Source: Halosegnis marinus (lineage in GTDB: Archaea > Halobacteriota > Halobacteria > Halobacteriales > Haloarculaceae). From it: DNA of 64,000 bases. Below, one piece after another: positions 56,629 to 62,165 of this stretch (position 1 is the first letter of the stretch; every line of letters begins with the position of its first letter). The notes beneath the pieces are model-generated. The model worked only from the letters and a program-made list of their open reading frames with translations. It made no database searches and was not told where the DNA came from. The stretch covers positions 1,240,001 through 1,304,000 of the forward strand of contig NZ_CP119802.1 in NCBI RefSeq assembly GCF_029338355.1. Reading direction: 5' to 3'. The translations under genes and the position numbers were made by a program.

Positions 56629-59586
56629 ATGAGCACAGGACAAGCCCCCAAACAGATCGGTTCGCTCAGCTTCGGGCTGATGGACCCCGAGGAGTACCGC
56701 GAGATGTCGGCCACGAAGGTCATCACGGCCGACACCTACGACGACGACGGCTTCCCCATCGACATGGGGCTGATGGACCCCCGCCTCGGGGTCATCGACC
56801 CCGGGCTGGAGTGCAAGACGTGCGGCAAGCACTCCGGGTCGTGTAACGGCCACTTCGGTCACATCGAGCTGGCCGCGCCCGTCATCCACGTCGGGTTCTC
56901 GAAGCTCATCCGCCGGCTGCTCCGCGGGACGTGCCGCGAGTGCTCGCGGCTCTGTCTCACCGAGGACGAGGCAGACGAGTTCCAGTCGCAGCTGCGCAAG
57001 ACCCGCAGCCTGGGCGAGGACCTCGGCGACGTGACGAAGGCCGCCATCCGGCAGGCCCGCAAGGCGTCGAACTGCCCGCACTGCGGCGAGAAGCAGTACG
57101 ACATCCAGCACGAGAAGCCGACGACCTACTACGAGGTGCAGGAGGTGCTCTCGGCGGAGTACTCCGAGACCATCGCGGCCGCGATGGAGGGCCGTCCGGT
57201 CGGCGACGAGGACGAGGAGGAGGCCGAGGAGCGCGAGCCGGTCGCGCCCACGGACCTCGCCGAGGAGACGGGCATCGACGTCTCGCGCATCAACGAGATA
57301 ATGTCGGGCGAGTTCCGCCCGACGAAGGAGGACCGCAAGGCGCTGGAGAAGGCGCTCGACATCGACCTCACGGAGGAGGACATGAACAAGCTGATGCCCT
57401 CGGACATCCGCGACTGGTTCGAGGACATCCCGGACGAGGACATCCGCACGCTCGGCATCGACGCCGACAAGTCCCGGCCGGAGTGGATAATCCTGACCGT
57501 CCTGCCCGTGCCGCCGGTGACGGCGCGTCCCTCCATCACGCTGGACAACGGCCAGCGCTCGGAGGACGACCTCACCCACAAGCTGGTCGACATCATCCGC
57601 ATCAATCAGCGGTTCATGGAGAACCGCGAGGCGGGCGCCCCGCAGCTCATCATCGAGGACCTGTGGGAGCTGCTCCAGTACCACGTCACGACGTTCATGG
57701 ACAACGAGATCTCGGGCACGCCGCCGGCGCGTCACCGCTCCGGCCGCCCGCTCAAGACCCTCTCCCAGCGGCTGAAGGGGAAGGAGGGCCGCTTCCGCGG
57801 CTCGCTGTCCGGTAAGCGCGTGAACTTCTCGGCGCGGACCGTCATCAGCCCGGACCCGACCCTCTCGCTGAACGAGGTCGGCGTTCCGGACCGGGTCGCC
57901 TCGGAGATGACCCAGACGATGAACGTCAACGACCGGAACCTCGACGACGCCCGGCGCTACGTCGCCAACGGGCCGGAGACGCACCCCGGCGCGAACTACG
58001 TTCGACGCCCGGACGGCCGCCGGCTGAAGGTCACCGAGAAGAACTGCGAGGAGCTCGCCGAGAAGGTGCAGGTCGGCTGGGAGGTCTCCCGCCACCTCAT
58101 CGACGGCGACGTCGTCATCTTCAACCGACAGCCCTCGCTCCACCGGATGTCCATCATGGCCCACGAGGTCGTGGTGATGCCGTACAAGACGTTCCGGCTG
58201 AACACCGTCGTCTGTCCGCCGTACAACGCCGACTTCGACGGCGACGAGATGAACATGCACGCGCTCCAGAACGAGGAGGCGCGCGCCGAGGCGCGCGTCC
58301 TGATGCGCGTCCAGGAGCAGATCCTCTCGCCGCGGTTCGGCGAGAACATCATCGGGGCCATCCAGGACCACATCTCCGGGATGTACCTGCTGACCCACGA
58401 GAACCCGCGGTTCAACGAGACGCAGGCGCTCGACCTGCTTCGCGCCACGTCCATCGACGAACTCCCGCCCGCGGACGGCGAGGAGGACGGCGCCGAGTAC
58501 TGGACCGGCCGCACCGTCTTCTCCGAACTGCTCCCCGACGACCTCGACATGGAGTTCGAGGGGACCGTCGGCGAGCCGGTCGTCATCGAGGACGGCCAGC
58601 TCATCGAGGGCACCATCGCGGAGGACGAGGTCGGCGAGTTCGGCGGCGAGGTCGTCGACACCATCACGAAGGTGTACGGCAACACCCGCTCGCGCGTGTT
58701 CATCAACGAGATCGCGACGCTCGCGATGCGCGCCATCATGCACTTCGGCTTCTCCATCGGTATCGACGACGAGTCGGTGGACGCGGAGGCCGAGGCGCAG
58801 ATCGGCGAGGCCATCGAGAACGCCTACGAGCGCGTCCAGAAGCTCATCGAGACGTACGAGGCGGGCGAGCTCGAATCGCTCCCCGGCCGGACGGTCGACG
58901 AGACGCTGGAGATGAAGATCATGCAGGCGCTCGGTCGCGCCCGCGACTCCGCGGGCGACATCGCCGACGAGCACCTCGACGAGGACAACCCGGCGGTCGT
59001 CATGGCCCGCTCGGGCGCCCGCGGCTCGATGCTGAACCTCACGCAGATGGCCGCGTGTGTCGGCCAGCAGGCCGTCCGCGGCTCGCGCATCAACCGCGGC
59101 TACGAGGACCGCACGCTGAGCCACTACAAGAAGGACGACCTCTCGGCCGACGCCCACGGCTTCGTGGAGTCGTCGTACCGGCAGGGGCTCAACCCCCGCG
59201 AGTTCTTCTTCCACGCGATGGGCGGCCGCGAGGGGCTCGTGGACACCGCCGTCCGCACCTCGAAGTCCGGCTACCTCCAGCGCCGGCTCATCAACGCCCT
59301 CTCCGAGCTGGAGACGCAGTACGACGGCACCGTCCGCGACACGGGCGACAACATCGTCCAGTTCGAGTTCGGCGAGGACGGCACCTCGACGACGCAGGTG
59401 GCCCACGACGAGGACACCCCCATCGACGTGGACGACATCGCCGCCCGCGTCATGGACGCGGAATTCGAGGACGACGAGGAGCGCGAGTCCTTCCTGAAGG
59501 GCCGCACCCTCGAGACGAACCTCTCGGAGCACCAGGACACGTGGCGCACCGGCGCCGCGGGCACGGAGGTGGAGTCGGATGACTGA
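56629..59586 (+). CDS. rpoA1: DNA-directed RNA polymerase subunit A'
   Basis: The 985-aa N-terminal part of Rpb1 starts with a zinc site C62-x2-C65-x6-C72-x2-H75 in the clamp. The catalytic Mg loop N533-ADFDGD539 lies in [14 protein letters not shown] bridge-helix region precedes the C-terminus ([23 protein letters not shown]). An additional D/E-rich segment ([10 protein letters not shown], about 195-208) is a halophilic insertion. No intein is present. It overlaps rpoA'' by 8 nt. Confidence 0.98.
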
Positions 59587-60787
59587 CCCGAGCGACGACG
59601 TGCGCGCGGTCGTCGAGGACACCGAACTGCCGAAGCGCCTCCGCGAGGAGGTGTACCGCGTCGTCGACGAGAAGGGCGCGAGCCTCGACCAGGCCGAGGA
59701 CATCGCCACGGCCGTCGAGTCGCGCTACCTCGACACCCGCGTCGACCCGCTCGACCCCGTCGGCACCGTCTCCGCGCAGTCCATCGGCGAACCCGGGACG
59801 CAGATGACGATGAACACGTTCCACTACGCCGGCGTCGCCGAGATCGACGTGACGCAGGGGCTCCCCCGGCTCATCGAGCTGGTGGACGCCCGCAAGACGC
59901 CGGACACGCCGACGATGCACGTCTACCTCGACGAGGAGCACGCGACCGACCGCGAGAAGGCCCACGAGGTCGTCTGGCGCATCGAGGCGACGCGCGTGCT
60001 CGCGCTCGGCGACGTGTCCACGAACGTCGCGGACATGCTCGTCAGCGTCGACCTCAACGAGGACACGCTCCGCGAGCGGTGGCCCACCTACGACGACCTC
60101 GACGAGATCGTCGCCGAGGTCGCCGGCATCATCGAGTCGAACCTCGGCGTCGAGACGACTCGGCCGGAGCCGACCACCGTCGAGTTCGGCCCGGACCAGC
60201 CGTCGTACCGCGAACTCCTCCAGCTGGTGGAGGAGCTCCGCGACATCGTGTTCAAGGGCATCGACGACGTGTCGCGCGTCGTCATCCGCAAGGAGGAGGT
60301 CGAGTCGGGCGACGAGGAGTTCGTCCTCCACACGGAGGGGTCGGCGTTCGGTAAGACCCTGAAGATAGAGGGCGTGGACCCCTCGCGCTCGACGTGTAAC
60401 AACATCCACGAGATACACCGCAACCTCGGCATCGAGGCCGCCCGCGAGTCGCTCATCAACGAGACGCGACACACGCTGGAGGAGCAGGGGCTGGACAACG
60501 TGAACGTCCGCCACCTGATGCTCGTCGCCGACATCATGACGAACCGCGGCGAGATCGAGTCCATCGGTCGCCACGGGATCTCCGGCAACAAGGAGTCCGT
60601 GCTCGCCCGCGCCGCCTTCGAGGTGACCGTCAACCACCTGCTCGACGCGGCCATCCACGGCGAGATAGACGACCTCAACGGCGTCACGGAGAACGTCATC
60701 GTCGGCAAGCCCATCAAGCTGGGCACCGGCGACGTGGACCTCCGGATGGGCGCCGGCCGCGCCTCGCCCGAGAGCGCCGACGACTAG
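59579..60787 (+). CDS. rpoA2: DNA-directed RNA polymerase subunit A''
   Basis: The 402-aa C-terminal Rpb1 part forms the trigger loop and clamp. Family segments are [52 protein letters not shown] (about 62-113, trigger loop), [11 protein letters not shown] and [41 protein letters not shown]. Its ATG lies within the last codons of A' (8-nt overlap). A stem-loop plus T-tract follows in the 84-nt gap to nusA. Confidence 0.97.
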
Positions 60788-60813
60788 TCGGCCCTCCCGC
60801 TTCCCCCGTTTTC

Positions 60814-60847
60814 CGGGTCCCCGCGTCGGACCCGCGCCACCGTTTTT
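60814..60847 (+). terminator. stem-loop with T-tract between rpoA'' and nusA
   Basis: CGGGTCC (60814-60820) and GGACCCG (60828-60834) form a 7-bp stem with a 7-nt loop, followed 8 nt later by T5 (60843-60847). It could attenuate or end rpo transcription. The T-run also sits about 27 nt before the nusA GTG, so it may instead be the nusA TATA element. Confidence 0.4.
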
Positions 60848-60871
60848 ACCCCCTCGTCCCGTAGCCGCGGT

Positions 60872-61690
60872 GTGATTCGGCTCTCGGACGACGCGCGTCG
60901 GCTCATCGGCTTCTTCGAGGAGGAGTCCGGGGCGACGATACGCGACTGCCTCGTGGAGGACGACCGCGTCGTCTTCGTCGTCGCGGCCGGCGGAATGGCC
61001 GACGCCATCGGGCCGCAGGGCCGCACCGTCTCGGGCGTCGAGGAGCGGGTCGGCAAGCGGGTCGAACTCGTCGAGGACGCCGACGACGCGGGACCGTTCG
61101 TGGCGAACGCGCTGCGCCCGGCGGCCGTGTACGAGGTGACCGTGACGGAGCGCGAGACGGAGGACGGAACCGAAACGGTCGCGTACGCGGAGGTGAACGC
61201 CGCCGACTTCGGCGCGGCCATCGGTTCGGGTGGTGAGAACATCCGCATGGCCGAGCGGCTCGCCGCCCGGCACTTCGACGTGGACGCCGTCGAACTCGTC
61301 CCCGAACCCGACTCGGTGCTCGACGCGGTGGCCGAGGCCACGGGGACGGAGCCGGCGGACGCGCTGTTCGACCCGACGGACGAGCGGCTCGTCGTGCTCG
61401 TGCCCGCGGGCACGCGCGACGAGGTGACGGGGGCCCGCCGCACGCTCCGCGACGACCTCGGCTGGCCGGTCGTCGTGGTCGAGTACGCCGGCGACGCGGC
61501 CGGTCTGGTGGAGAACGCGCTCGCCCCCGCCGAGGTACGGAACGTCACCGTCTCGGCGAGCGGGGTCGCCTACGTCGAGGTCGCCGAGGAGGACCGCGGG
61601 CTCGCCATCGGCTCCGGCGGGGAGCGCATCCGGCTGGCCCGGCTGCTCGCGGCCGAGTACTACGGCCTGGACGACGTGGAACTCGCCTGA
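60872..61690 (+). CDS. nusA: NusA-like transcription factor with an internal tandem duplication
   Basis: The 272-aa protein contains a normal archaeal NusA in its first about 142 residues: two KH units with GxxG loops I-GPQG (46-50) and I-GSGG (117-121), ending in DVDAVEL. The remaining 130 residues are a second copy. DERLVVLVPAG (170-180) aligns with DDRVVFVVAAG (30-40), AGDAAGLVENALAPAEVRNVTV (206-227) with DDAGPFVANALRPAAVYEVTV (71-91), and IGSGGERIRLARLLAAEYYGLDDVEL (246-271) with copy 1. The first GxxG loop is lost in copy 2. Archaeal NusA is normally about 140 aa. The start is GTG 60872, and it is followed by rps12 with its own TATA. Confidence 0.9.
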   Translation: MIRLSDDARRLIGFFEEESGATIRDCLVEDDRVVFVVAAGGMADAIGPQGRTVSGVEERVGKRVELVEDADDAGPFVANALRPAAVYEVTVTERETEDGTETVAYAEVNAADFGAAIGSGGENIRMAERLAARHFDVDAVELVPEPDSVLDAVAEATGTEPADALFDPTDERLVVLVPAGTRDEVTGARRTLRDDLGWPVVVVEYAGDAAGLVENALAPAEVRNVTVSASGVAYVEVAEEDRGLAIGSGGERIRLARLLAAEYYGLDDVELA

Positions 61691-61742: not shown

Positions 61743-62165
61743 ATGGCGAACGGCAAGTACGCCGCGCGTAAGCTGAAGAAGGACCGCCAGAAGCACCGGT
61801 GGTCCGACTCGGACTACGCGCGACGTGCCGGCGGACTCGGGACGGACCCCCTCGAAGGGGCGCCCCAGGGCCGCGGCATCGTGTTGGAGAAGGTCGGTAT
61901 CGAAGCGAAACAGCCCAACTCGGCCATCCGGAAGTGCGTCCGGGTGCAGCTCATCAAGAACGGGAAGCAGGTCACGGCGTTCTGTCCCGGCGACGGCGCT
62001 ATCTCCTTTATCGACGAGCACGACGAGGTGACCATCGCGGGCATCGGCGGCGCGAAGGGCCGCGCGATGGGCGACCTCTCGGCGGTCAACTACAAGGTCG
62101 AGAAGGTGAACGGCGTCTCGATGAAGGAACTCGTCCGCGGGAACGCGGAGAAGCCGGTGCGATAA
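61743..62165 (+). CDS. rps12: 30S ribosomal protein S12
   Basis: The 140-aa protein has the decoding-centre segments [22 protein letters not shown] (about 54-75) and [18 protein letters not shown]. The archaeal N-terminal extension [28 protein letters not shown] is present. Start ATG 61743 lies behind a TATA box. It overlaps rps7 by one base (TAATG). Confidence 0.97.

Follow-up and report, generated by a model that had tools for sequence, protein, structure and literature searches.

A NusA with four KH domains in Halosegnis marinus and its close relatives

Introduction

Archaeal NusA, a KH-domain-only protein, binds RNA (PMC8116511, PMC7289017), and RNA binding by the Aeropyrum pernix protein is cited in PMC8116511, which calls the function of archaeal NusA unclear. 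Known members of the family (TIGR01952; A. pernix, PDB 2CXC) have one KH pair in about 140 aa. Bacterial NusA (M. tuberculosis NusA-RNA, 2ASB/2ATW; E. coli, 6FLQ) likewise has a single KH pair, together with an N-terminal polymerase-binding domain and an S1 domain. In Mycoplasma pneumoniae, NusA carries a C-terminal extension, flexible and specific to its lineage, that touches the ribosome in the expressome (PMC8116511). The Sulfolobales have an archaeal NusA paralogue of matching fold, NusA2 (PDB 9FJL, 9F9U), for which our literature search found no paper in Sulfolobus.

Here we describe a NusA from the window, a stretch of 64,000 nucleotides of the Halosegnis marinus genome. The protein resembles known archaeal members in family, KH1-KH2 fold, GxxG loops and rpoA2/rps12 location, but has two KH pairs per chain, with the third GxxG loop deleted. 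Each of its halves is homologous to the KH1-KH2 unit of bacterial NusA, whose N-terminal and S1 domains it lacks, and the RLA motif past the GxxG loop is common to its fourth KH domain (GSGGERIRLA) and M. tuberculosis NusA (GKEGQNARLA). Whereas the M. pneumoniae addition is flexible and contacts the ribosome, the Halosegnis addition is a duplicated KH pair, and whereas NusA2 is distant (14-18% identity) and forms its own chain of some 170 aa, the Halosegnis form is a fusion. In a literature search that covered subscription journals thinly, we found no description of a two-pair archaeal NusA and no paper on NusA tandem duplication. The four-KH NusA appears to be a domain architecture undescribed so far and confined to one clade.

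Results

A 272-residue NusA at the standard archaeal location

The gene lies between those for an RNA polymerase subunit and a ribosomal protein, in an order that recurs in more than 30 relatives and is the standard location of archaeal NusA:

59579 to 60787, + strand: rpoA2 (RNA polymerase A''), preceding nusA
60872 to 61690, + strand: nusA, 272 aa, GTG start, stop codon at 61688-61690, four KH folds
61743 to 62165, + strand: rps12 (uS12), next gene 3' of nusA

The whole protein scores 218.4 bits against the archaeal NusA model of NCBIfam, TIGR01952, over two matched stretches, with a curated cut-off of 74.35. Its first half (copy 1) has the standard order of two KH domains with GxxG loops, GPQG and GSGG, and its fold agrees with 2CXC. 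Only the description of archaeal NusA as a protein of about 140 aa with one KH pair does not apply, as there are 272 aa and two pairs. The H. marinus protein is clearly an archaeal NusA, of variant architecture. We took a minus-strand open reading frame over nusA (60784-61548) as a GC-rich shadow frame.

The second half is a second KH pair

BLASTP aligned residues 1-144 with residues 145-272 at 42% identity over 128 columns (E=6e-19), and Smith-Waterman alignment of the halves scored 180, against a mean of 36.8 and a maximum of 70 in 2000 shuffles (z=21). Most of this signal comes from KH2 and KH4, which are strongly similar (135 versus a shuffle maximum of 56); that between KH1 and KH3 is close to noise, the pair being weakly similar by sequence alone (45 versus a shuffle maximum of 53, a score reached by 9 of 2000 shuffles). 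Taken alone, residues 145-272 matched TIGR01952 at E=3.9e-19 and 69.4 bits, slightly below the curated cut-off, with the Halorarius copy 2 sequences above it at 76-77 bits. A profile built from six copy-2 sequences matched 2CXC at 1.3e-16, and Pfam detected the second part only of copy 2. An earlier note on this DNA had proposed that the protein carries an extra, degenerate copy of its own KH pair, and the identity, the z score and the TIGR01952 E value of the second half bear out an extra copy, which is degenerate in part. The note had placed the repeat at residues 170-271; a repeat is indeed there, but that span is short by about 25 residues and omits helix 1 and strand 1. The whole pair is residues 145-272, aligned to about residues 5-143 of copy 1.

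Structure prediction agrees with these boundaries. AlphaFold2, run on the whole chain with a six-sequence alignment, gave a pLDDT of 94.3 and a pTM of 0.86, and the helix and strand order of residues 6-144 recurs in residues 146-271 of the model. Predicted alone, copy 2 again took a KH-KH fold (pLDDT 88.9), and its best Foldseek match was archaeal NusA 2CXC (TM-score 0.92/0.85, 1.7 A), which answers whether residues 143-272 form a KH fold: in the model, residues 145-272 have the NusA KH-KH fold. The linker between the copies is nearly zero, copy 2 beginning right where copy 1 ends. The second half is thus, we conclude, a full NusA KH pair in its own right; of the four KH folds in the chain, three have a GxxG loop.

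Two complete copies with almost no linker, in a model whose pTM suggests one fixed arrangement, might imitate a NusA homodimer within one chain. The copies have, however, diverged asymmetrically, with a loop lost in KH3 only, we came across no dimer of archaeal NusA, and we consider such an intramolecular dimer very improbable. The earlier note had raised both dimer behaviour and a role in transcription-translation control; our results support neither.

The four KH domains have diverged unequally

The domains and their loops are as follows:

60884 to 61087, + strand: KH1 of copy 1, residues 5-72, canonical; GPQG loop at residues 47-50 (61010-61021)
61088 to 61303, + strand: KH2 of copy 1, residues 73-144; GSGG loop at residues 118-121 (61223-61234)
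61304 to 61495, + strand: KH3, first KH of copy 2, residues 145-208; KH fold retained, GxxG loop deleted
61496 to 61687, + strand: KH4, second KH of copy 2, residues 209-272; GSGG loop at residues 247-250 (61610-61621), invariant R242, R252, R254 and R257

Copy 2 had been noted to lack the first GxxG loop and keep the second, and this proved true of all six full-length proteins in our set. In each, a 4-residue gap near residues 187-189 (about 61430-61438) removes the KH3 loop, and KH4 has GSGG, GTGG, GSSG or GNGG; copy 2 thus does not have GxxG in both of its KH domains. Of the positions at which single-copy haloarchaeal NusA is conserved, KH1 retains 87%, KH2 79%, KH3 29% and KH4 68%. Invariant residues number 34/68 in KH1, 38/72 in KH2, 27/64 in KH3 and 36/64 in KH4, KH3 being the least conserved. 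All four domains have a net acidic charge, as is usual for proteins of halophiles.

The surroundings of the second GxxG loop differ between the copies. In KH2, basic residues flanking the loop are lost (R, T or H to F113; R to E128), and there is a loop insertion at about residues 93-101. At the position preceding the loop, most single-copy NusA proteins have R, every copy 1 has F and every copy 2 has R. Of the 34 single-copy proteins, 31 share a helix arginine; copy 1 has E or T in its place, and every copy 2 has R. Two additional arginines near the loop are fixed in copy 2 only. In sum, R242, R252, R254 and R257 of KH4 are arginine in 6/6 proteins, and the copy 1 equivalents of R242 and R257 are F and E/T, respectively, in 6/6. 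Over the stretch comprising the GxxG loop and the helix, the mean number of K and R residues is 4.9 in single-copy NusA, 2.8 in KH2 and 5.2 in KH4. By overall similarity, KH2 scores higher than KH4 against single-copy NusA (about 92-103 versus 63-89 bits).

These residue patterns suggest that the second RNA contact has shifted in part from KH2 to KH4, as one event in one lineage and not as a statistical trend. KH2 may remain the main RNA contact, given that it keeps its GxxG loop and lies closer to the family profile than KH4. The proposal in the earlier note that copy 2 adds a third functional KH is plausible for KH4, which keeps GxxG and gains conserved arginines. Alternatively, by analogy with the M. 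pneumoniae extension, the second pair might be a module for contacting a protein (the ribosome, RNA polymerase or Spt4/5). Contact between NusA and the ribosome through added C-terminal sequence has that precedent (PMC8116511), and KH3, lacking an RNA loop, could offer a protein surface. That extension, however, is described as flexible and contains no KH pair, and the conserved arginines beside the KH4 loop resemble an RNA contact instead; we therefore regard a protein-contact module as improbable.

The long form is restricted to Halosegnis and Halorarius

Across a survey whose scope was the Halobacteriota, single-copy NusA measured 135-142 aa (34 loci read to the stop codon). Among 59 relatives, full-length matches occurred in genera g1 and g9 only. 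In a sample of 392 genomes of the order, drawn from genera other than g9, a full-length profile found NusA in 373 and extended into copy 2 only in members of g1. With copy 2 as the query against all 146 genomes of the family, seven genomes matched at E<1e-64; the next best match, at 2e-28, was an ordinary single-copy NusA. One g1 genome (G003) has a contig end that falls inside copy 2. A scan of GTDB contigs gave six long-form loci, those of Halosegnis rubeus, Halorarius litoreus, Halorarius halobius and three metagenome-assembled genomes (MAGs). Among the matches listed for 158 genomes of the phylum, with the three longest frames outside Halobacteria read, there was no further doubled form.

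Within the genomes surveyed, the long form is therefore restricted to Halosegnis and Halorarius and is not the haloarchaeal norm. The survey upheld the premise that haloarchaeal NusA is normally about 140 aa and that 272 aa is unusual, all other Halobacteriales NusA proteins that we read through having 135-142 aa. That all haloarchaeal NusA proteins might be about 270 aa is ruled out by the lengths at the 34 loci and by the lack of any other order-sample match reaching copy 2. An assembly artefact was rejected too, as the long form occurs in several independent genomes, including two complete chromosomes of Halorarius.

Several candidates were set aside on reading. Frames of 263-288 aa around some single-copy NusA genes stay open ahead of the start codon, as GC-rich DNA would lead one to expect, and the genes proved ordinary in length when read to the stop. 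Outside Halobacteria, the long frames of G471 and G482 and a 210-aa frame of G456 each hold one NusA.

Two loci stood out in other ways. The Halosegnis-type MAG QS_9_67_17 (G001, locus L007) has a doubled NusA without about 22 residues just past the KH1 GxxG loop, either a real deletion or an assembly error. Locus L092 (G376) has nusA, yet the 8.3 kb around it yielded no rpoA1, rpoA2, rps12 or rps7, in contrast to every other relative examined.

Some relatives appear to have lost nusA

Seven genomes of 94-99% completeness, five from genus g5 and two from family f7, have rps12 after rpoA2 and lack nusA in the interval (loci L122-L128, in G009, G339, G390, G092, G068, G399 and G350). TIGR01952 had no match elsewhere in these seven genomes. 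Their only NusA-type KH matches lie in frames of 640-700 aa that are also found in NusA-bearing genomes and are probably the KH region of aCPSF1/FttA. Another genome of genus g5, G028, has nusA. We conclude that nusA appears to have been lost in seven genomes of two haloarchaeal families, which contrasts with the statement that all archaea encode NusA (PMC7289017). At three loci (L127, L128 and L129, in G399, G350 and G044), the rpoA2 match falls in two pieces within one frame of 874-891 aa, an intein-like pattern.

Origin and selection

In a tree of rpoA1 plus rpoA2 from 39 genomes, the carriers of the long form make up a single clade, with an SH-aLRT of 99 and single-copy genera around it. 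A single gain is therefore simplest, and the long form probably arose once. In a NusA tree, copy 1 forms one clade and copy 2 another, copy 2 sitting on a long branch whose attachment is not decisive.

Its separate branch, apart from copy 1, could mean that a foreign NusA, joined on by gene fusion, was the source of copy 2 in place of the host's own gene. A tree constrained to hold copies 1 and 2 together is, however, not rejected (p-AU 0.115); copy 2 attaches within the haloarchaeal set, beside g10, a local relative of the carriers in the species tree, and it bears haloarchaeal motifs such as ALAPAxVxNVTVS and EDRG-AIG. We give a foreign source almost no credence. From the near-zero linker and the completeness of the second copy, we infer that the entire coding sequence was duplicated in tandem and in frame.

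Between carriers, dN/dS is 0.11-0.54 for copy 2 and 0.12-0.45 for copy 1, with lower values for rpoA1 and rps12. Purifying selection has thus maintained copy 2 as coding sequence, with somewhat less constraint than on copy 1. Values this far below 1 led us to reject the idea of a pseudogene tail, and the slightly higher dN/dS of copy 2 also fits partial relaxation.

Partial relaxation is what one might see if the duplication had been fixed by drift, KH3 had decayed and the rest had been kept since the halves pack inseparably, with no new function. Along with the dN/dS values, such a neutral fusion would account for KH3, loopless and the least conserved domain (27/64 invariant residues versus 34-38 elsewhere); seven relatives apparently live without NusA, and constraint on the protein would therefore be weak. 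Packing alone, however, would not demand what is found in KH4, a GxxG loop and four invariant arginines kept in two genera with about 70% identity overall. We consider a neutral fusion unlikely.

Discussion

We favor, with a probability of about 0.55, an in-frame tandem duplication of the whole gene followed by a division of labour between the copies, yielding a four-KH RNA clamp. On this model, the nusA coding sequence would have been doubled head-to-tail, in frame, in the common ancestor of Halosegnis and Halorarius, and the product would be a rigid four-KH array in which KH1 keeps a canonical GxxG loop. KH2, retaining its loop with the adjacent basic residues lost, would make a reduced RNA contact. 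KH3, folded and loopless, would probably serve as a spacer or packing domain, and KH4, with its loop retained and adjacent arginines kept or gained, would contact RNA. The protein would bind nascent RNA exiting RNA polymerase near the Rpo4/7 stalk, as ordinary archaeal NusA would. Contact would then be divided between KH1 and KH4, with KH2 and KH3 in between, so that a longer stretch of RNA or two separated segments could be spanned.

One part of this model we hold more tentatively. It is possible, judging from the exchange of arginines between the copies, that the RNA-contact role of the second KH domain has moved from KH2 to the duplicated KH4 and that the RNA footprint has lengthened.

If this reading is true, the four-KH NusA would be a natural experiment in splitting archaeal NusA function. 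Doubled, diverged copies beside relatives apparently without nusA provide natural variants for dissecting the role of each KH domain, and such variants could help to tell whether NusA works by way of RNA length, RNA selection or contacts with proteins.
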